Part shown: piece by piece, positions 1,813-64,000 of the stretch
Layout: the number at the start of each line of letters is the position of its first letter
Numbering within the stretch: position 1 is the stretch's first letter
Assembly (NCBI RefSeq): GCF_037023755.1
Contig: NZ_CP146100.1
Coordinates: forward strand, 1,924,501 to 1,988,500
Length of the DNA stretch: 64,000 nt
Source of the DNA: Saccharopolyspora sp. SCSIO 74807
Lineage (GTDB): Bacteria; Actinomycetota; Actinomycetes; Mycobacteriales; Pseudonocardiaceae
Direction of reading: 5' to 3'
Position numbers and translations under genes: made by a program
The notes under the pieces: generated by a model
Told to the model about the DNA's origin: nothing
Databases searched by the model: none
Seen by the model: the letters and a program-made list of their open reading frames with translations, nothing else

Positions 1813-2451
1813 TCAGGCCAGGACCGCGAAACCACCGCCGATGATCAACGCTCCCGCCAGCGCGCCCGCGACGACCTGGGCTGTCGTGTGGTCCCCCAGT
1901 CGTACCCGCGACCAGCCGATCCCGGCCGTGACCAGGCCCAGCAGCCACCACGCAGGTCCGTAGAACAGCGCCAGCACGACCGTGGCGCCGCCGCCGGCCG
2001 CGGCGTGCATCGAGATCTTCCACTTGGTGGTGATCGCCCCGGCGACGATCACCAGCGCGAGCATTCCGGCGTCCAGCGCGGTCATCGCCCGCGGTGCCCC
2101 ACCGGTCACCAGCAGCACCAGTCCGATCGTGCCCGAGCCGATCAATGCGATGAACGGGATCAGCCGCCCGGCGCGGTCGCGCACGTGGTGCCCGTCCCAC
2201 CGTCCCCGCGCGGCACCGACCGTCATCACCGCCTGCGGGATCAACGCGCTGGTGGCCGCCACCAGCACTCCCCATCCCAGCGCTGGCCACCAGCGGTAGC
2301 CGGTGGCCTGCCACGCCACTCCGATCGGCAACAGCGTGATCAGCACCCATGGCGCGAAGATCTCGGTGACGGTCCGCGCGAGGCGCAGGGATGCCGTGGT
2401 CTTCGCCGACGGTTCAGCAGCCGGAGTGGGCTCGAAGGCAGTGTTGCTCAT
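1813..2451 (-). CDS. PAP2-like membrane protein (phosphatase superfamily)
   Basis: A 212-residue membrane protein with about five hydrophobic helices after a short Ala/Ser/Thr-rich N-terminus. Residues near the C-terminus (WSRVRLGDHTTAQ) resemble the third PAP2 phosphatase motif SRx5Hx3D, but Gln stands where the motif has Asp. The middle motif reads SMHA instead of SGH. It may be a divergent lipid phosphatase or an inactive relative. ATG 2451 is chosen because the upstream extension is Gly/Arg-rich non-membrane sequence. The gene stands alone, 109 bp upstream of the ImmA-like gene on the same strand. Confidence 0.6.
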   Translation of the reverse strand: MSNTAFEPTPAAEPSAKTTASLRLARTVTEIFAPWVLITLLPIGVAWQATGYRWWPALGWGVLVAATSALIPQAVMTVGAARGRWDGHHVRDRAGRLIPFIALIGSGTIGLVLLVTGGAPRAMTALDAGMLALVIVAGAITTKWKISMHAAAGGGATVVLALFYGPAWWLLGLVTAGIGWSRVRLGDHTTAQVVAGALAGALIIGGGFAVLA

Positions 2452-2720
2452 GCGCGCTGGTCGGTCCTCGATCACGGCGGCGACAGGTACCGGCAGAGTG
2501 GCACAGGCCCCGCCGCGGAACCCTCTCGGGCCCGCGAAACCGGTATCGCCGCGACGCCGGTGAGCCGCTCCGCCGCGACCGGTGTGTTCCACAGCGCACT
2601 CGCCGCCCCTGTCCGGACGGGTGAACTCGCAGCTCAGTTACCCTTTGGAAGTACTGCTGGACATCCACCGGGGCTCGGCACCGAGCAGGTGGATCTGCAC
2701 GAACCGGGGGAGCATCGCCC

Positions 2721-2960
2721 GTGGCCCGAGTCGTCGTCGACGTCATGCCCAAGCAGGAGATCCTCGACCCGCAGGGTCAGGCGGTGGCCAATGCGCTGCC
2801 CCGGCTCGGTTTCGAGGGCGTTTCGGAAGTCCGCCAGGGGAAGCGGTTCGAGCTTCAGGTCGCCGACGACGTCGACGACGCCACCCTCGCCAAGATCGCC
2901 GAGACGTTCCTGGCGAACCCGGTGATCGAGGACTGGACGGTTCGGCGGGTGGAGTCATGA
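2721..2960 (+). CDS. purS: Phosphoribosylformylglycinamidine synthase subunit PurS
   Basis: A 79-residue protein of the PurS family. In the three-subunit FGAM synthase, PurS bridges PurL and the glutaminase PurQ, so that ammonia from glutamine reaches FGAR in step four of de novo IMP synthesis. The length and the opening [16 protein letters not shown] are typical. It starts at GTG 2721 with GGGGGAG about 8 nt upstream. Its TGA overlaps the purQ ATG (ATGA), so it is the first gene of a translationally coupled purS-purQ-purL operon. Confidence 0.95.
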
Positions 2961-3634
2961 GCGCGAAGATCGGTGTCATCACCTTCCCCGGCACCCTCGA
3001 CGACGTGGACGCGCAGCGCGCCGTGCGCCGCGCGGGCGCCGAGGCGGTCGCGCTCTGGCACGCCGATGCCGACCTGCGCGGCGTGGACGCGGTGATCGTG
3101 CCCGGCGGGTTCTCCTACGGCGACTACCTGCGCTGCGGCGCGATCGCGAAGTTCGCCCCCGTGATGGGCGAGGTGGTGCGCGCCGCCGGGCAGGGGATGC
3201 CGGTGCTGGGCATCTGCAACGGCTTCCAGATCCTCTGCGAGGCCGGCCTGCTGCCGGGCGCGCTGACCCGCAACTGCGCGCTGCACTTCGTGTGCCGCGA
3301 CCAGTGGCTCAAGGTGGAGAACAACACCTCGGCCTGGACCACCCGCTACGACGCGGGCGCAGAGCTGCTGGTGCCGCTGAAGTCCGGTGAGGGCGCCTAC
3401 ATGGCCGACGAGTCCGTGCTCGACGAGCTCGAAGGCGAAGGCCGCGTGCTGCTGCGCTACGTCGAGGACAACCCGAACGGTTCGCTGCGCGAGATCGCCG
3501 GGATCACCGACGCGCGCGGCCGGGTGGCCGGCCTGATGCCGCACCCCGAGCACGCCATCGACCCGCTGACCGGGCCTACCGACGACGGGCTCGGCATGTT
3601 CCTGTCCGCTCTCGACGCACTGGTGGCAGCGTGA
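2957..3634 (+). CDS. purQ: FGAM synthase glutaminase subunit PurQ
   Basis: A 225-residue class I glutamine amidotransferase that supplies ammonia to PurL. The catalytic triad is visible: nucleophile Cys87 in GICNGFQ, and His196 and Glu198 in PHPEHA. The oxyanion region PGGFSYGD is also intact. Length and motifs fit PurQ rather than other GATase1 proteins. It overlaps purS (ATGA) at its start and purL (GTGA) at its end, consistent with equimolar synthesis of the complex. It is expected in the cytoplasm. Confidence 0.97.
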
Positions 3635-6051
3635 CGAACGATCCCGAAGACGTGACCGCTAGCGGTTCGGGCACCCACGCCGTGGCAGGCGGCCCGACGA
3701 CCGAGACCGGCACCGGTGAGCGGTTCTCCGAGGACGCCCCCGCTGCGGAGGTCCCCGCCGCGAAGGCCGCCGCGCTGGACACCGTGCTCGCCGCGGAGTC
3801 CACTCCGGACACTCCGCAGCCGCACCGCGAGCTGGGACTCAAGGACGACGAGTACGAGCGGATCCGCGAGATCCTGGGCCGCCGCCCCACCGAGGCCGAG
3901 CTGGCGATGTACTCGGTGATGTGGAGCGAGCACTGCTCCTACAAGTCCTCCAAGGTGCACCTGAAGTACTTCGGCGAGACCACGACCGACGAGATGCGCT
4001 CGAAGATGCTGGCGGGCATCGGCGAGAACGCCGGCGTGGTGGACATCGGCGACGGCTGGGCGGTCACGTTCAAGCTCGAGTCGCACAACCACCCGTCCTA
4101 CGTGGAGCCGTACCAGGGTGCCGCGACCGGCGTCGGCGGCATCGTGCGCGACATCATGGCGATGGGCGCGCGCCCGGTCGCGGTGGCCGACCCGCTGCGG
4201 TTCGGCCCCGCCGATGCGGACGACACCCGCCGGGTGCTGCCGGGCGTGGTCGCCGGGGTCGGCGGCTACGGCAACTGCCTGGGCCTGCCGAACATCGGCG
4301 GGGAGGTCTCGTTCGACTCGTCCTACGCGGGAAATCCGCTGGTCAACGCCATGTGCGTGGGCGTGATGAAGACCCAGGACCTGCACCTGGCGCACGCCAG
4401 CGGCACCGGCAACAAGATCATCCTGTTCGGCGCGAGCACCGGGCTGGACGGCATCGGCGGCGTGTCCGTGCTGGCTTCGGAGACCTTCGAGGGCGACTCG
4501 GCGGATTCCGGCTCCGGGCGCAAGAAGCTGCCCAGCGTGCAGGTCGGCGACCCGTTCACCGAGAAGGTGCTGATCGAGTGCTGCCTGGAGCTGTACCACT
4601 CCGGGCTGGTCGTGGGCATCCAGGATCTCGGCGGCGCCGGATTGTCCTGCGCCACTTCGGAACTGGCCTCGGCCGGGGACGGCGGGATGCGCGTCGACCT
4701 GGACCGGGTGCCGCTGCGCGCGGAGGGCATGACCCCGGCGGAGGTCCTTTCCAGCGAGTCCCAGGAACGCATGTGCGCAGTCGTCGAACCGTCCAGCGTG
4801 GACGCGTTCATGGACGTGTGCGCCAAGTGGGACGTGACCGCCACGGTGATCGGCGAGGTCACCGACGGCGAGAACCTGGCGATCTACTGGCACGACGAGC
4901 TGGTGGTGGACGTGCCGCCGCGCACCGTCGCGCACCAGGGTCCGGTCTACGAGCGCCCGGTGGAGCGGCCCGCCGAGCAGGACCTGATCACCGCGGACAA
5001 CCCGAACACCCTCGCGCGTCCGTCCACTCCGGACGAATTGCGGGAGGCGCTGCTGCAGCTGGCCGCCTCGCCGAACCTGTGCTCCCGCGAGTGGGTCACC
5101 AGCCAGTACGACCGCTACGTCCGCGGCAACACCGTGCTGGCGCAGCCTTCGGACGGCGGAGTGCTGCGGGTCGACGAGGAGACCGGGCGCGGCATCGCGG
5201 TCGCCACCGACTGCAACGCCCGCTACGCCCGGCTCGACCCGTACGCGGGCGCGCAGCTGGCGCTGGCCGAGGCGTACCGCAACGTCGCGACCACCGGCGC
5301 CACCCCCATGGCGGTGACGAACTGCCTGAACTTCGGCTCGCCCGAGGACCCGGGTGTGATGTGGCAGTTCCAGCAGGCGGTGCGCGGGCTCGCGGACGGC
5401 TGCGCGGAACTCGGTATCCCGGTCACCGGCGGCAACGTCAGCTTCTACAACCAGACCGGCAGCCGTCCGATCCTGCCCACGCCGGTCGTCGGGGTGCTCG
5501 GCACGATCGACGACGTGACCCGCCGCATCCCCACCGGAATCGGCGGTGAGCAGGGCGAGACGCTGCTGCTGCTCGGCGACACCCGCGAGGAGTTCGGCGG
5601 CTCGGAGTGGGCGAAGGTCGTGCACGGCCACCTCGGCGGTACCCCGCCGCAGCCCGACCTTGCGCGGGAGAAGCTGCTCGCCGAGGTGCTGCTCGCCGGT
5701 TCCCGCGACGGCATGATCTCCGCGGCGCACGACCTGTCCGACGGCGGCCTGGCGCAGGCGCTGGTCGAGACCGCGTTGATCGGTGAGTGCGGTGCCCGCG
5801 TGGTCCTGCCGGAGGACGCGGACCCGTTCGTGCAGCTGTTCTCGGAGTCCGCGGGCCGCGTGCTGGTGGCCGTGCCGCGCAGCGAGGAGCTGCGGTTCAC
5901 CGAGATGTGCTCGGCCCGCGGCCTGCCCTGCGCGAAGATCGGCGTCGCCGACGCCGGTGTGTCCACACTGGACATCCAGGACGTCGCCGACGTCCCGCTG
6001 GCCGAACTCCGCGAGGCCTGGGAAGGCACTCTTCCCGCGCTGTTCGGCTGA
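3631..6051 (+). CDS. purL: FGAM synthase synthetase subunit PurL
   Basis: An 806-residue small-type PurL that uses ATP and ammonia from PurQ to turn FGAR into FGAM. Family signatures include [12 protein letters not shown] near residue 100, the ATP-binding stretch ESHNHPS, and the Gly-rich [11 protein letters not shown]. The first 65 or so residues are an Ala/Thr/Pro-rich acidic extension not needed by the fold, which explains the length above the usual ~740. The start is GTG 3631, inside the purQ stop (GTGA). It is the last gene of the operon and is followed by a palindromic repeat at 6064-6113. Confidence 0.97.
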
Positions 6052-49697: not shown

Positions 49698-51362
49698 CTA
49701 CGCGATCAGCCCGATGCCGGTCACCACGCAGATGATCAGGACCGCGGCCACCGCGGCGACCTGCCAGGTGCGTTTGCTGCGGCGCTTGCGCTGCTCCTTC
49801 TTCCAGTCCATCCGGGAAGCGCCCGCGTCGCGGCCTTCGACGAAGTCGAACGGCATGTCGCGGCCGAGCTCGGGCTCCTTGCGCATCCCGAACAGCCAGG
49901 AGAGCTTCTTGCGGCGCTCGGCTTCCTCTTCGGCGATCTGGTCGTGCACGGCGGAGAACCTGGCCAGCGTCGCGTCGATCTGGCGGACCTCGTCGTCGTC
50001 GTCGTCCTCGACGAACTCGTCGTCGTCCTCGTCGAGGACCGGGGCGGCGACCATCGTTTCGTCGTTGTCCGGCTGCGGGACCGGGGCGACGGTGGTCTGC
50101 TCCGCCGGTCCGTCGGCGGGTTCTTCGGCGGGCACCGCCGGGTGCTGAGCGGTCGCCTCGGGATCTCCGGACGGAGCGGACGGGGCGGGCCGCCCGGGTC
50201 GGCCGGCGGGACGGCCGGGCGCGGCCGGTCGGCCCGAGCCGCTCTGGTCCGGCTTGCGCTGCGGCTTGGCGGGCTCGCCGGAGAGCGCCTGGGTGATCTT
50301 GGTCGATTGGTCGTTCGGCGCAGCGGGCGCGCTGGGCGCTGCGGACGGCGGTGGCGGCGTGGCCTGCGGCCGCTGCTCCTGCGGAGGCCGCTGCGCTGGT
50401 CCGGGAGCGGGGCGACCCGGCTGCGGCGGCGCGGGCGGCGGTGTGGCCGTCCGCGCTTCCGTTGCGTTCGGCTCGGCGGCTGCCGGAGTGCCGTTGCGCG
50501 GTTCCTGCGGGGGCTGCGGACGCGGTTGCTGCGCCGGACCGGGCTGCGGCGCAGCGGGCGGCATCTGGGCCGGCCGCGCCGGGGCTTGCGGCGCCGGTGG
50601 TGCCTGCGACGCGGGCTGGTTGCCGCGGGGCTCCGGATACCTGCCGGTTCCGGGCCGCGACGGTGCGGGCGGGCGCGCGTGCCCTGCGGGCGGACGCGAC
50701 GGGGATTCCGGCGGCGGTGTCCAGTCCGCGCGCCGCTCCGACGGCGGACCGTTGCGGGACTGGCGGCTCCGCGCCGGTGCTTGCGGCGGCCCGGGGTGGC
50801 TGCCGTTCTGCTGCGGACCGGGCTGCTGCCCGTTCTGCCCGTGGTGCGGAGCGCCGAGCTGCTGCTGCCCGTTCTGCTGGTACCCGTCCGGCTGGGGGTC
50901 GTGCTGCGGAGATCCGTGTTGCGGAGCTCCTGGCTGCATCCCGTGCTGCGGCCCGGCCGACCGACGCGGCGGCGCCTCCGGCGGCTGTGCGCCGTTCTGC
51001 GGCGAACCGGCGGGCGCCTGCGAACCGTTCCGCGCGAACTCGCCGGACGGAGTCTCGGGCGGCCGCGAGCCGTTCCGGGATCCCGAAGGTTGCGAGGGTT
51101 GCACCGGAGGCGCGGAGCGTGACCGCCTACCGCCTCCGCTGTCCGACTGCTCCGGTTCGGCGGCCCTGCGGTGCGAGCCGGTGCCCGCACTGGGCGCCTT
51201 GCCGTGCTTGTTGAGCAGGTCGAGGACTCGCGTCCCGCCGGTTCCGTCGTCGCCTAACGCGCGGCGCCTGCGGCCGGCCTGCGGGCTGTCGCCCTCGTCT
51301 GCCGCCCCTGCTGGGTCGGGACTCTGGTGCCCATGCTGGCCGTGCCGGGGGTCCTGCGGCAC
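49698..51362 (-). CDS. Proline-rich single-pass membrane protein; LCP domain absent
   Basis: A 554-residue protein. Residues 1-400 are a Pro/Gln/Gly-rich disordered region. An acidic stretch (about 440-465, DEDDDEFVEDDDDD) follows, then a juxtamembrane helix and a single membrane helix (WQVAAVAAVLIICVVTGIGLIA) at the very C-terminus. At this locus (between phoU and dus) mycobacteria have the LytR-CpsA-Psr protein Rv0822c, which continues into an extracellular LCP domain. Here the stop TAG falls right after the membrane helix, with no room before phoU for a lost domain. The start is GTG 51362 behind GGGAGG. Function unknown. Confidence 0.75.
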   Translation of the reverse strand: MPQDPRHGQHGHQSPDPAGAADEGDSPQAGRRRRALGDDGTGGTRVLDLLNKHGKAPSAGTGSHRRAAEPEQSDSGGGRRSRSAPPVQPSQPSGSRNGSRPPETPSGEFARNGSQAPAGSPQNGAQPPEAPPRRSAGPQHGMQPGAPQHGSPQHDPQPDGYQQNGQQQLGAPHHGQNGQQPGPQQNGSHPGPPQAPARSRQSRNGPPSERRADWTPPPESPSRPPAGHARPPAPSRPGTGRYPEPRGNQPASQAPPAPQAPARPAQMPPAAPQPGPAQQPRPQPPQEPRNGTPAAAEPNATEARTATPPPAPPQPGRPAPGPAQRPPQEQRPQATPPPPSAAPSAPAAPNDQSTKITQALSGEPAKPQRKPDQSGSGRPAAPGRPAGRPGRPAPSAPSGDPEATAQHPAVPAEEPADGPAEQTTVAPVPQPDNDETMVAAPVLDEDDDEFVEDDDDDEVRQIDATLARFSAVHDQIAEEEAERRKKLSWLFGMRKEPELGRDMPFDFVEGRDAGASRMDWKKEQRKRRSKRTWQVAAVAAVLIICVVTGIGLIA

Positions 51363-59745: not shown

Positions 59746-60531
59746 TCAGCGTCCCCAGGCGGAGTCGACGGCGAACAGGTAGTTCCGGGTTCCGGTGGTG
59801 ACTTCCGCGGTGCGCACCCAGGAACGCTTGTTCCAGGTGTACATCGCGTACCCGAGCCCGTGCAGGTGGTCGGTGAACTCGGCGGCGCTCGTGCGGTAGC
59901 GGGACAGGTGCCGGTCCTCGATCTCCAGCAGCAGCGTCGGGTGGTGGCGTTCGACGGTCGCCGCCGCGCCTTCGACGACGTTCGGCTCGAAACCTTCCAC
60001 GTCCACCTTCATGAAGTCGACCCGCTCGACGCTCTGCTGCGCGCAGAACTCGTCGACCACGCGGATCGGGGTGCGCCAGGAGCGGGTCTTGGTGAACGTC
60101 GTGTCCGGCCTGGTCTGCCGCACGCCGTCGTTGACGTGCGCGTGCCCGTGGATCGGGGCGAATCCGAACTTCACCGGCAGCGCCATCTCCAGCGACCCGG
60201 GTTCGCTGCCCACCGCGGCGTCGGTGACGCGCACGTTTTGCAAGCCGCACGCGCGAACGCCCGTCCGCAGCACGCGCCGGGGCTTCGGCTGCGGCTCGAA
60301 CGAGTACACCGCGCCCGCGGGCCCGGCCAGGCTCGCCAGCGTGAAGCTGTACATCCCGTAGGCGGCGCCGATGTCGAAGCAGACATCACCCGGGCGCACC
60401 AGCTCCGCCAGCCCCCGCAGTTCCGGCTCCGCCAGCGAAAGCGAAGCGGATCCGCGCAGCGCACCGGCGATCATCGCGAGCCGCCTGCCCGCGGGTCGCG
60501 CGGCCGGGCGGGCAGGAGCGTTCTCGGACAT
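59746..60531 (-). CDS. FkbM family methyltransferase
   Basis: A 261-residue SAM methyltransferase: motif I VCFDIGAAYGMYS, then YSFEPQPKPRRVL and FMKVDVEGFEPNVVEGA, the FkbM signature. Such enzymes O-methylate sugars or polyketides. The HHPTLLLEIEDRH block is also typical. ATG 60531 has AAGGAT about 11 nt upstream. It is convergent with the SDR; no biosynthetic cluster surrounds it. Confidence 0.88.
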   Translation of the reverse strand: MSENAPARPAARPAGRRLAMIAGALRGSASLSLAEPELRGLAELVRPGDVCFDIGAAYGMYSFTLASLAGPAGAVYSFEPQPKPRRVLRTGVRACGLQNVRVTDAAVGSEPGSLEMALPVKFGFAPIHGHAHVNDGVRQTRPDTTFTKTRSWRTPIRVVDEFCAQQSVERVDFMKVDVEGFEPNVVEGAAATVERHHPTLLLEIEDRHLSRYRTSAAEFTDHLHGLGYAMYTWNKRSWVRTAEVTTGTRNYLFAVDSAWGR

Positions 60532-60758
60532 GGCGATCGACGATCCTTCACTGGTCGCTCGGGTGGGCGCGGCGCGATGCGCCGCGCCGTCGCCGAAGTC
60601 TAGCGAGCAGCGCGGGAGGCGTAGGTTGCCCTGGACGGATCAGGGGGGTTCCCCGCCCCTGGCTACACGCGACCCGCGCGCGCTCAGCTCGTGGCCTCAA
60701 CGGGTGAAAGATCTCGAAAAATGCCCGAGAACGGCTTGCTGAAGTCACCATACATCGC

Positions 60759-62837
60759 ATGGCAGCGAACGCCGACGAGATCGTGATCACCAAGGTTGCC
60801 CCGGATGACATCGAGACGGTCGAAGCGTCAATTGCTTTGGGCAACCGGTCCAAGAAGACGCTCGGAATGCTTCCGCACGCCGCCTACTATGGTTATGCGG
60901 AGAAAGGTGGTTTGCTGACCGCAGTCATCGGCGGAGCGATCGTCGGCTACGCGCTCTTCCAATTTCCGCGGAACGAAGTTTCGCTGACCCATCTCTGCGT
61001 CCACCCAGAGAATCGCCGCCGAGGTGTCGCGCAGTTGCTCGTGACCGAGATTAGCAGGCGACATTCGGACAAGCTCGGGGTTCGGGCGAAGTGTCGCGAT
61101 GACTACGAGATGGATGATACTTGGCGATCGTTGGGATTCACGAAGCGCGCTTCCACGCTCGGGCGCGGTAAGGATGCAGCGGCGATGACGGTATGGTGGC
61201 GAGACCACGGGCATCCGGACCTGTTCACTCAGTACGATGAACTGAGCCCACTGGCGGTCGTGGCTGATGTGAATGTCTTGCTGGACCTGTTTATCCGGCC
61301 TGAGCATCCGCGTGCCGCTGACTCGCGAATGCTGCTTGCGGACCACCTGGTAGATCGTTTGGAGGTCGTCACGACCAGAGGGTTGGATCGCGATCTCGCC
61401 CGGCACCCATCCGATGATCAGGAAAATCTTCGCAAGGCGGCGGCGTCTTGTCCGCGCAAGGAAGGTCCACCGTGGGAAGCCGAGCAACTTTACGAACTTT
61501 TGTTATCCGACGTCGTTCGAGACAATCCCGGATTTCCCAAAAACGATCAGGACGTAGGAGACCTGTGGCAGCTCGCGGAAGCGGCCGTCTGCGGTGCTGG
61601 AGCCTTCGTCACTTGGGATGAGGCGTTGATCAGGCGGTTCGGTCCCATCGTGCGAGAGCGCACCGGTCTTCGGGTGATGTCTCCGGACCGCGTGATCACT
61701 CGTCTCGACGAGCTGGCGAACTTCATGGCCTACCAACCGGAAGCTCTGCACGACGGACGGTACACGACGGTGCAGGCGGCTTCGGACTCCGAAGATGAGC
61801 TGCTTGGCTTCTTGAACGCCGATAAAGGGGAACGCAAGAAAGAATTTCGAGACCACCTTCGGTGGCTGGCTCGATCACAGTTCCCGCACTGGATCATCCA
61901 TGGCCCGGATCAGCGAGCGGTCGCGTGCTACGCGGGGTTCAAGGAGGGGTCTGTGTATCACGTTCCGCTGCTACGGATCGTGGATCACCCCATCGTCGAC
62001 ACCCTGGCGCGGCACCTCATCTGGGAGATTCGGCAAGCGGCGCGTAGGCAAGGGGCCAAAGTGGTGGATATCAGTGACGCTGCCCTACCTTCGCTTGTTG
62101 CACGTTTTGCCGAGTATGATGGATTGCGGCACATTGACGGTCATTGGTACGCGTGGATCGTTAACCGCTGTGGAACGAGCTTGGAAGTTACCGCGGAGAT
62201 GAACGCCGCCCGTAATGTCGTCAAGGTGGGCAGCGGGGTGCCATTGCAACCCAACCTCGGTCGACATGCGGTCGCGGAGTTCGAACGTTCGCATTGGCCG
62301 GCAAAGGTCATCGACGGTGAGCTGCCGTGTTTCGCTGTCGCCATTCAGCCCAGGTGGAGTGCAGAATTGTTCGGTGAGCCACGCACGTTAACCCCGCGCG
62401 GTGATCAGCTTTCCCTGGGGGTGGACCATGTATATTATCGCAGCCCCAAAAACGGCTCGCTCGCTTACCCGGCTCGAATTCTGTGGTACATGAGCGAAAA
62501 TATTAAGATGACCGGGAAGGCTCGGTTTATCGGTACATCGCTCCTATACGCGGTCAATGTTGGAGACGCTGCGGAGATGCATACTGCCCTGCGGAATTAC
62601 GGTGTCTTCAGGGTGGCGGACGTGCAAGGGGCCGCCGATCAGGACGGGCGGGTGCAAGTCTTGCGGTTCTCGAACACGGAACTGTTCACAAATCCGGTAT
62701 GGCGCGCGGATTATGACACCTTCGGTCCGGCGATGGGTGGTCCCAGGAACTTCCTCTCCCCGGTGCGGGTCAGCCCTGCTCTCTTCGCGGAGATCTACCG
62801 CCGTGGGGTTCCGGGCGAGGCTGACGACCACCCGTAA
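60759..62837 (+). CDS. GNAT-PIN-PUA-like fusion protein
   Basis: A 692-residue multidomain protein. Residues 5-150 form a GNAT acetyltransferase with the acetyl-CoA loop HPENRRRGVA (82-91). Residues 165-315 form a PIN nuclease with Asp170 and Asp176 (ADVNVLLD), an acidic cluster (Asp263, Asp265, Asp268) and Asp287 (TWD). Residues 345-470 look like a second, degenerate GNAT fold. Residues 525-680 look like a PUA/EVE-type RNA-binding fold (FAVAIQPRWSAELFG, then ILWYMSE, FIGTSLLYAVNVGD, GVFRVADV). GC is about 60% in sampled lines against 73% in an adjacent gene, suggesting transfer. An ASCH gene follows 69 bp later. The function is unknown; an RNA-targeting toxin or defence role is inferred. Confidence 0.75.
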   Translation: MAANADEIVITKVAPDDIETVEASIALGNRSKKTLGMLPHAAYYGYAEKGGLLTAVIGGAIVGYALFQFPRNEVSLTHLCVHPENRRRGVAQLLVTEISRRHSDKLGVRAKCRDDYEMDDTWRSLGFTKRASTLGRGKDAAAMTVWWRDHGHPDLFTQYDELSPLAVVADVNVLLDLFIRPEHPRAADSRMLLADHLVDRLEVVTTRGLDRDLARHPSDDQENLRKAAASCPRKEGPPWEAEQLYELLLSDVVRDNPGFPKNDQDVGDLWQLAEAAVCGAGAFVTWDEALIRRFGPIVRERTGLRVMSPDRVITRLDELANFMAYQPEALHDGRYTTVQAASDSEDELLGFLNADKGERKKEFRDHLRWLARSQFPHWIIHGPDQRAVACYAGFKEGSVYHVPLLRIVDHPIVDTLARHLIWEIRQAARRQGAKVVDISDAALPSLVARFAEYDGLRHIDGHWYAWIVNRCGTSLEVTAEMNAARNVVKVGSGVPLQPNLGRHAVAEFERSHWPAKVIDGELPCFAVAIQPRWSAELFGEPRTLTPRGDQLSLGVDHVYYRSPKNGSLAYPARILWYMSENIKMTGKARFIGTSLLYAVNVGDAAEMHTALRNYGVFRVADVQGAADQDGRVQVLRFSNTELFTNPVWRADYDTFGPAMGGPRNFLSPVRVSPALFAEIYRRGVPGEADDHP

Positions 62838-62892
62838 AGGTGATATCCGAGATACTTTCCCCAAGTCGCTTCGCACTGCTGTGCTAATAGTC

Positions 62893-62898
62893 TAGGAT
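62893..62898 (+). promoter_or_regulatory. Candidate -10 box of the ASCH gene
   Basis: TAGGAT ends 8 nt before ATG 62907, so the ASCH gene may have its own leaderless promoter. The embedded AGGA could instead serve as a ribosome binding site. Confidence 0.35.
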
Positions 62899-62906
62899 CT
62901 CATGCT

Positions 62907-63389
62907 ATGAGTGCCCCCACGATTTCCCCGGTGGAACCCACGTCGCGTCCGTTGCTGCTTTCGTTGCGGCCGCGGTTCGCCGAAGCGATACTGACCGGCT
63001 CCAAAACCGTCGAGCTGCGTCGTACCCGGGTCGCTGCCCCGATTGGCACCGAGCTAGTGCTTTACGCCAGTTCGCCGGTCATGTCCGTCGTGGGCGTTGC
63101 GACGCTGTTGGGCCGGGAATCCGGCACCCCCGATTCGATTTGGCGTAAGCACAAGCAGCACGCAGGCGTACGACGCCGGGAATACGACGAGTACTTCGCA
63201 GGGAGCGGCTTGGCCACTGCGCTGTCCATCGGCAAGGCTCAGGCGTTGGCGATTCCGTACACGTTGGCTTGGCTCCGTGACGAAGCCGCTTTCCAGCCAC
63301 CGCAGAGCTACCGTTACCTGACCTCCGCGGACCCGATATCGCTGCGGAGGCTGGCCGAAATGGAGCCGAACCAAGCTGTGCCCGCGTAA
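62907..63389 (+). CDS. ASCH domain protein
   Basis: A 160-residue protein with an ASCH/PUA-like fold. The start LLLSLRPRFAEAILTGSKTVELRR is the ASCH signature (a Lys/Glu/Arg-containing helix and strand), then ELVLYASSPVMSVVGVATL. The remainder (WRKHKQHAGVRRREYDEYFAG, then ALAIPYTLAWLRD and PPQSYRYLT) matches larger ASCH proteins that follow GNAT/PIN genes. It probably binds RNA or a nucleotide. It is lower in GC like the preceding gene, and the two probably form one module. Confidence 0.85.
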   Translation: MSAPTISPVEPTSRPLLLSLRPRFAEAILTGSKTVELRRTRVAAPIGTELVLYASSPVMSVVGVATLLGRESGTPDSIWRKHKQHAGVRRREYDEYFAGSGLATALSIGKAQALAIPYTLAWLRDEAAFQPPQSYRYLTSADPISLRRLAEMEPNQAVPA

Positions 63390-63417
63390 GGGCGCAGGCC
63401 GGGGTGCATGTGTAGCT

Positions 63418-64000
63418 TCAGCCCTCTTCTCTGCTATTTCCGTTCACCGGCGGGCTCGGGACGCACGGCGGTTCTTCGGCGTCGGCCGGGTCGAGTGCGT
63501 TGAGCACGTACTGCTCGGCGCGGCGGTCGAACGAGATGCCCAAGTGGTCGGTGGCGTTGATCTCGCAACCGTCCTGCAGCAGGACGTTCGTGACGTTCGG
63601 GCCGTCGAGGAAGGCCGAGGTGTACGGGGTCACGATCTCGTCGTAGCGGGTTGCGACGACGGTGTAGTCGACACCGGGAACGGTGTCGCCGCCGGCGTTC
63701 AAGTCGGCCAGGAACGCGGAGTCGTGCATCTGGTCCCGCACCGAGTCACCGAGTCCGGCCTGCAGCAGTTCCGGCACGCCGGGCAGGTGCGCGAGCCCGT
63801 CCACGTCGGTGCCGTGGTTGGACGGCGCGAGACCCACCAAGTGCCGGACCTTGTCCGCGCCGCCGAGTTCCTTCAGGTAGTAGCGCGGCATCATGCCGCC
63901 CTGCGAGTGCCCGACGATGTCGACCTGATCGCTGCCGGTGGCGGCGCGGACCTCGTCGACGAACCCGGACAGTTCAGCGGCCGACTGCGGCACCGGCGCG
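63418..64000 (-). CDS. Lipase/esterase, EstA-like (partial)
   Basis: The C-terminal 193 residues of an alpha/beta hydrolase; the N-terminus lies beyond the right edge. The nucleophile elbow GHSQGG and RYYLKELGGADKVRHLVGLAPSNHGTD are typical of secreted actinobacterial class 2 lipases. The Asp lies near TRYDEIVTPYTSA and the His near NATDHLGI. Two Cys (DGCE and PPCVP) could form a disulfide, consistent with export. The stop is at 63418. Confidence 0.85.
   Translation of the reverse strand, partial: APVPQSAAELSGFVDEVRAATGSDQVDIVGHSQGGMMPRYYLKELGGADKVRHLVGLAPSNHGTDVDGLAHLPGVPELLQAGLGDSVRDQMHDSAFLADLNAGGDTVPGVDYTVVATRYDEIVTPYTSAFLDGPNVTNVLLQDGCEINATDHLGISFDRRAEQYVLNALDPADAEEPPCVPSPPVNGNSREEG

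Follow-up and report, generated by a model that had tools for sequence, protein, structure and literature searches.

Introduction

What is the task of two adjacent genes of Saccharopolyspora sp. SCSIO 74807, of which the first encodes a 692-residue fusion of GNAT, PIN and EVE/PUA-like parts and the second a small ASCH protein? Both genes lie in a stretch of 64,000 nucleotides (contig NZ_CP146100.1, positions 1,924,501 to 1,988,500), which is called the window in the following. Judging from homology, we regard it as fairly likely that the two genes represent a longer sub-form of the GevAT, PDC-M11 or (PIN)-GNAT-EVE/ASCH systems and serve in toxin-antitoxin action or abortive infection; the pair was probably acquired horizontally. 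This reading is supported by the colinearity of the fusion protein with the short form of such systems, the PDC-M11B match of the ASCH protein, the co-occurrence of both genes, the annotation of a related pair as GevT and GevA, defense neighbors of relatives, patchiness, low GC content and purifying selection. An earlier note on this DNA had described both genes and proposed an RNA-targeting defense or toxin-antitoxin system; its observation is confirmed, its reading as a whole is partly supported, and RNA remains an unproven candidate target. The genes and the parts of the fusion protein are located as follows:

60759..62837, + strand: fusion gene (long-form GevT/PDC-M11A-like, GNAT1-PIN-GNAT2-EVE), 692 aa, ATG start
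60759..61208, + strand: GNAT1, about aa 1-150; Pfam Acetyltransf_1 E 4.5e-7; motif RRRGVA at aa 86-91
61236..61733, + strand: PIN, about aa 160-325; acidic residues D170, D212, D265/D268, D287
61746..62198, + strand: GNAT2, presumed non-catalytic, about aa 330-480; Arg406 invariant
62256..62834, + strand: EVE/PUA-like domain, about aa 500-692
62838..62906, + strand: spacer between fusion and ASCH gene, 69 nt
62907..63389, + strand: ASCH gene (GevA/PDC-M11B-like, presumed antitoxin), 160 aa, ATG start

Architecture of the fusion protein

Residues 164-690 of the fusion protein are colinear with eight short PIN-GNAT-EVE proteins encoded on plasmids (profile against profile, E 7.1e-22). Compared separately with this short form, the PIN part reached E 3e-9, GNAT2 E 2.6e-5 (probability 75%) and the EVE part E 3.4e-12. 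In the window protein itself Pfam detected GNAT1 directly and missed PIN, GNAT2 and EVE, and therefore the assignment of these three parts rests on relatives and profiles. The relatives were aligned as 39 sequences, consisting of the window protein and the full-length proteins of 38 of the 49 loci found by a genome scan; L033, L035, L057, L059, L060, L062, and L065 were omitted because they are broken, partial or do not cover the whole match. Four more (L020, L041, L045, and L051) were omitted because they share 93 to 100% identity with a retained row. With 38 further full-length sequences in several phyla, the domain arrangement is, by the measure of these sequences, more than a product of chance. 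At E 0.01 or better, 38 of the aligned members match GNAT and 11 match PIN_3. Pfam EVE matches one of 31 members, with E 0.031. Furthermore, the EVE region matches the profile of the ASCH partner with E 1.7e-10 (hhalign), where the control comparisons gave E 0.013 (3%) for PIN-ASCH and E 0.34 for EVE-GNAT1. When the PDB sequences were searched with an alignment of the PIN part alone (24 rows) or of GNAT2 alone (28 rows), nothing relevant came up, and the EVE-only alignment matched ZmASCH with E 0.14. A glutathione transferase-related chain (E 0.11) and retroviral integrase chains (E 0.69 to 1.4), matched by the same EVE alignment, were judged to be chance, as were weak DpdF matches at aa 595-636 (PADLOC E 0.0021, NCBIfam E 0.079). 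By profiles, each part of the GNAT-PIN-degenerate GNAT-PUA/EVE order read in the earlier note is right or likely right. The weakest part is the placement of GNAT2, which depends on the colinearity with the short form. GNAT families of Pfam had no match in this region at E 1 or better in the 28 members scanned, and the best Pfam match of the window's own region is DUF4132 (E 0.006, below its cut-off). The profiles of GNAT1 and GNAT2 compare with E 0.0019 at a probability of 14%, which is near the unrelated PIN-ASCH control.

Active GNATs carry an acetyl-CoA motif of the pattern [RQ]xxGx[GAS], and PIN nucleases are recognized by four acidic positions. The acetyl-CoA motif is present in GNAT1 of 34 of the 39 members, with RRRGVA in the window, and in GNAT2 of none of the 39, which agrees with the former description of the second GNAT as degenerate; Arg406 of GNAT2 is present in all of them. 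Judging from this motif pattern, the N-terminal GNAT has probably taken over as the acetyltransferase in the long branch. The window protein is a member of this distinct longer branch, to which an N-terminal GNAT was added relative to the short form. In the sole GNAT of the eight short forms, the corresponding position is occupied by a loop GxKxGE, which is conserved (8/8) but not canonical; searched with the same script, this pattern is absent from the GNAT-EVE proteins L066, L069, and GevT as well as from L068 and the short form at L052. The PIN acid set is complete in 23 of the 39 rows, among them the window, where D170, D212, D265/D268, and D287 are all filled, just as had been claimed.

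The ASCH partner

The second gene had been taken for a stand-alone ASCH gene, and this identification holds. Its product matches PDC-M11B of PADLOC (E 8.7e-31), its profile matches the solved ZmASCH structure (5gus/5guq, E 1.4e-34), and it is 36.5% identical to GevA over 115 residues (E 7e-16); the match to Pfam ASCH (E 0.0084) is below the cut-off. The two genes indeed travel together. At 47 of the 49 loci, which were retrieved by the fusion alone, an ASCH gene was detected. At the two others none was detected: in L035 the fusion frame ends early where it meets an McrC frame, and the fusion of L057 is broken and lies at the end of a contig. The spacer measures -29 to +79 nt in 45 of the 46 measured loci with ASCH, the exception being the broken fusion of L059. 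Among L017-L023, which are near relatives from actinobacteria, it ranges from 64 to 79 nt. In the reverse direction, a fusion relative was found in the same record for 29 of the best 40 of 46 ASCH-matching plasmid records, and among those listed the remaining 11 had no fusion relative at the thresholds used. One Caulobacter plasmid (L068:1328-3469) encodes a divergent GNAT plus PIN protein with an ASCH match downstream; this fusion is not among the tblastn matches listed for the window fusion, although its ASCH ranks first among the plasmid matches listed for the window ASCH. The plasmids L096 and L097 each carry two ASCH or ASCH-like genes, one upstream of the fusion gene and one downstream of it in opposite orientation.

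As described in PMC5615036, ZmASCH is a weak Mg-dependent single-strand RNase, in which Tyr47, Lys53, and Ser128 are involved. The window ASCH has this fold and retains the equivalents of Tyr47 (Y53, invariant in 34/34), Gln127 and Ser128 (S134), whereas Lys53 is replaced by Met59. Together with the published idea that PIN forms degrade acetylated aminoacyl-tRNA (recounted in PMC7641849), the homology to ZmASCH and the invariant tyrosine could be explained by a non-toxic pair for RNA or tRNA maintenance, in which GNAT1 and PIN would act on damaged or acetylated tRNA, either processing it or taking it out of use, and the ASCH protein would be a second RNA-binding subunit or a weak RNase. We hold such a role for quite improbable, since the patchiness, the plasmid and defense-gene neighborhoods elsewhere and the low GC content suit mobile conflict systems better; the exchange of Lys53 speaks against it, too.

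The N4-acetylcytidine amidohydrolase YqfB has a triad of Lys21, Thr24, and Glu74 with Thr as the nucleophile (described in PMC9599836). An amidohydrolase of this type, by which the pair would acetylate and de-acetylate cytidine, was considered and ruled out, as the position of the Thr nucleophile is Glu. By placement by eye, the window protein has K33xxE36xR38 in place of Lys21, Thr24, and Arg26 of YqfB, and E36 is invariant in 34/34.

Comparison with known systems

Fusions of the (PIN)-GNAT-EVE type with ASCH have been presented as predicted toxin-antitoxin systems that occur in the vicinity of restriction systems and prophages, and DNA bases, RNA and aminoacyl-tRNA are among the targets proposed for them (Bell et al., 2020, PMC7641849). 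According to the same text, no module of these operons had been characterized experimentally as of 2020. Like the operons described there, the window combines PIN, a GNAT-like part and EVE in the same order in one protein and has an ASCH gene adjoining on the same strand, 69 nt downstream, in a predicted operon. Likewise, the relatives occur in defense neighborhoods and are patchily distributed, in bacteria and archaea according to our own searches as well as to PMC7641849. In these operons PIN stands at the N-terminus; in the window an extra GNAT (aa 1-150) precedes PIN instead, and we therefore class the pair as a variant and not as a standard member. Moreover, the inner GNAT-like region of the window lacks the acetyl-CoA motif, unlike the operons as described in PMC7641849. 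In the available text of that paper the long branch is not described and adjacency to McrBC is not mentioned; the kind itself is already known from print, PADLOC and GenBank.

The candidate system PDC-M11 of PADLOC covers the short form plus ASCH. The window ASCH belongs to its M11B family, whereas M11A is not matched over the full length. Of the 39 long forms, 38 match PDC-M11A at E 0.01 or better, the best with 1.3e-18 compared to 2.7e-152 for the short form L067. Thus the large-protein models of PADLOC match the form of the window only partly, which marks a gap in defense-gene annotation. In GenBank, PV340567.1 (Escherichia phage PhiR47_2) annotates a short form between cI and kil, naming GevT as the toxin and GevA as the antitoxin. 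The ASCH gene follows the GNAT-EVE gene there as it does in the window, and GevA is homologous to the window ASCH. However, GevT has 357 aa without PIN and without the extra GNAT, and the gevT and gevA genes overlap, unlike the window pair. Homology thus supports the defense or toxin-antitoxin role proposed earlier, which is no novelty in view of PMC7641849 in its available text, PDC-M11 and GevT/GevA.

Several observations weigh against a module of this kind. The PDC-M11A match of the window protein is partial (aa 506-647, 142 residues, 139/486 model positions, E 2.8e-4), and a short form had no tblastn match at positions 56001-72000 at E 1e-3. A direct match of the window fusion to phages was not found either, and because of these missing direct matches the link to GevT runs via profiles to the short PIN-GNAT-EVE forms. 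GNAT1 compares with the GNAT of the short form with E 8e-6 (84%), no worse than GNAT2, so that GNAT2 is taken as its counterpart because of position, not score. Sixteen of the 39 members lack part of the PIN acid set, so that PIN cutting is not required everywhere. No paper on GevAT was among the literature matches listed and none was found by exact phrase, subscription papers and most preprints being outside the search; in that literature no toxicity, neutralization or phage data for the long form were found. Finally, the pair sits here among metabolic- or regulatory-looking genes, outside any defense cluster.

Distribution, selection, and composition

A first genome scan with the single window protein as query found nothing, and a second with the alignment as query found the 49 loci; viral contigs gave no match. 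The aligned relatives belong to Actinomycetota, Cyanobacteriota, Bacteroidota, Pseudomonadota, Myxococcota, Nitrospirota, Gemmatimonadota, and Acidobacteriota. The window clusters with copies of Lentzea, Umezawaea, and Nocardia in clades of 6 and 7 rows (support 99/97 and 100/100, respectively). Among 100 related genomes 25 match, of which four are near full length in one frame (the own genome, G256, G264, and G275), two are split (G271, G336) and 19 are short matches, mostly GNAT-sized. Four other members of the genus gave no match when searched. In 246 genomes of the phylum the own copy alone is full length, and the 12 other matches are GNAT-sized. The pair is present in one copy in its own genome.

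Pairwise ratios of nonsynonymous to synonymous substitutions (dN/dS) range from 0.075 to 0.265 in seven close pairs of relatives, and those of the window's own two pairs are 0.26 and 0.18, with dS of 1.9 and 3.0, respectively, which is near saturation. By these ratios the relatives are under purifying selection.

The lower GC content pointed out in the earlier note was recovered: the fusion gene has 59.7% and the ASCH gene 64.2%, which gives 60.2% for the pair compared to 71.0% for positions 1-60500 of the window. In 27 of 38 loci the pair lies at least 3 points below its own flanks, and the nearest relatives L017-L023 have no such drop. Horizontal acquisition is probable. An insertion boundary could not be demonstrated, because in the four other genomes of the genus the upstream flank, the only one compared, is matched by fragments of at most 179 bases.

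A GC content unlike the rest of the window, and a pair that stands alone with no defense gene recognized beside it, might also be expected of a recently acquired remnant that has no present function in this genome. This explanation is very improbable in our view: both frames are open, the GNAT1 motif and the PIN acid residues are complete, and the relatives are under purifying selection.

McrBC and other defense neighbors

In contrast to the window, defense genes adjoin the pair in many relatives. Among 140 neighboring open reading frames (at most two per side, 38 loci), AAA_5 is matched by 14 and McrC by 12. McrB was found downstream of the pair in 19 loci. Its distance from ASCH is no more than 150 nt in 17 of these, and 1.3 and 1.7 kb in L045 and L048, respectively. 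McrC is likewise present in 19 loci, L015 having no McrC match and L035 no McrB match. All McrB cases fall to the cyanobacteria, where McrB follows the pair in 19 of the 22 loci sampled, the other three being L034, L035, and L057. The pair, McrB and mostly then McrC have the appearance of a four-gene operon in these loci. Of ten neighbor proteins searched with PADLOC at E 1e-5, five matched (L019, L027, L028, L036, and the short form of L052) and five did not. Type IIG genes adjoin the pair in L027 and L028. Five Bacteroidota loci (L016, L047, L050, L051, L053) have a frame in common, which in L050 is an edge fragment and in L016 contains a DNA-adenine methylase part (E 3.4e-13); the genes upstream of the pair in L016, read by eye as AAA and HNH, are also common to these five loci. 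At L052, a short PIN-GNAT-EVE form (601-2229, PDC-M11A E 4.6e-142) directly precedes the long form (2229-4220), in which the PIN acids are incomplete.

The frequent McrB could mean that the pair is a module for nucleic-acid modification and reading. The fusion protein would then acetylate a base, as proposed by Iyer et al. (2013) according to PMC7641849, EVE and ASCH would read the mark, and a separate enzyme such as McrBC would act, so that the pair would be a specificity or licensing factor and not a toxin. The McrB of L014, the one tested, resembles McrB 6hz4 (E 4.6e-54). ASCH and EVE folds are reported to bind bases (PMC7641849), and the two-barrel ASCH-like BapA is described as a 5-hydroxymethylcytosine glycosylase in phage defense (PMC13160076). 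Nevertheless, we consider this rather unlikely. No McrBC was seen in the flanks of the 23 acid-complete rows, the window included, for which about 6 kb downstream were searched in most rows and less than 1.6 kb in L027 and L056, and GevT and GevA are annotated as toxin and antitoxin. In addition, the N-terminal part of McrB had no EVE or ASCH similarity in a profile test. Since it has none, it cannot be claimed that the pair supplies a reader lost by McrB, and the test speaks neither for nor against that idea.

The presence of McrBC goes along with decay of PIN: all 14 McrBC-linked rows are without a complete PIN acid set, as are two rows without McrBC, L034 (Pseudanabaena) and L052. However, on a tree computed after removal of the PIN columns, a single change accounts for the presence of McrBC and there is one independent contrast. 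As only one clade is concerned, the association has no statistical weight and is a lead only. The lost PIN acids differ among the cyanobacteria, which would give the pattern expected from relaxed constraint. In the pair L043/L048, PIN has the highest dN/dS of the four parts (0.295), and in the pair L038/L044 both GNAT2 (0.337) and EVE (0.286) are above PIN (0.273). It is conceivable, though doubtful, that catalysis has shifted in the long branch, with the N-terminal acetyltransferase replacing the decayed inner one, and that the killing domain is exchangeable, PIN having decayed where McrBC joined in cyanobacteria and having stayed mostly complete elsewhere, as in the window. If true, the shared core of GNAT1, EVE and ASCH would be an infection sensor driving either an RNA-cutting or a DNA-cutting effector.

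Proposed mechanism

For the toxin-antitoxin or abortive-infection module we infer the following working. The EVE-like domain would bind to a nucleic acid, in which a base is probably modified. GNAT1, as the sole GNAT region with an acetyl-CoA motif, could acetylate this nucleic acid or a bound aminoacyl-tRNA, and the PIN domain, the acid set of which is complete in the window, could cut RNA. Either activity might be the source of toxicity. GNAT2 may be what is left of the ancestral short-form GNAT, retained for structure or for sensing. The ASCH protein, which is of the same fold class as EVE, would neutralize the fusion protein either through direct binding or through competition for the same nucleic acid, and phage infection or gene loss would be the trigger that releases the fusion protein. 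Unlike the short form, the long branch offers a likely active GNAT region, a PIN and a reader domain that can be inactivated separately, and natural variants with complete or incomplete PIN and with or without McrBC exist.

Genomic surroundings in the window

The upstream neighbor of the pair is an FkbM methyltransferase and the downstream neighbor a lipase (Pfam); profile libraries were applied to these two flanking genes. The other neighbors (FMO-like, SDR, Crp-like regulator and others) look metabolic or regulatory by eye from their translations. In open reading frame lists for positions 56001-72000 with size limits of 80 and 130 aa, no transposase, in accordance with the earlier note, and no integrase or defense gene was recognized by eye, a dedicated profile scan not having been made. 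Type I restriction-modification or AAA_17 genes, which are often near the (PIN)-GNAT-EVE/ASCH operons, were not recognized there by eye either. McrB, McrC, a short PIN-GNAT-EVE form and three proteins of a Prevotella locus had no tblastn match to 56001-72000 at E 1e-3. The spacer could not be aligned convincingly among seven actinobacterial loci, the window included, and contains no convincing conserved element or promoter. Within 60400-63600, one sigma-70-like site was found with 0.7 expected from shuffling, and no terminator-like site with 2.1 expected. Apart from the pair, a long Pro/Gln-rich frame with a hydrophobic segment at its end lies at 49698-51362 on the - strand, in the most GC-rich kilobase of the window (78.5%, AT skew -0.52).

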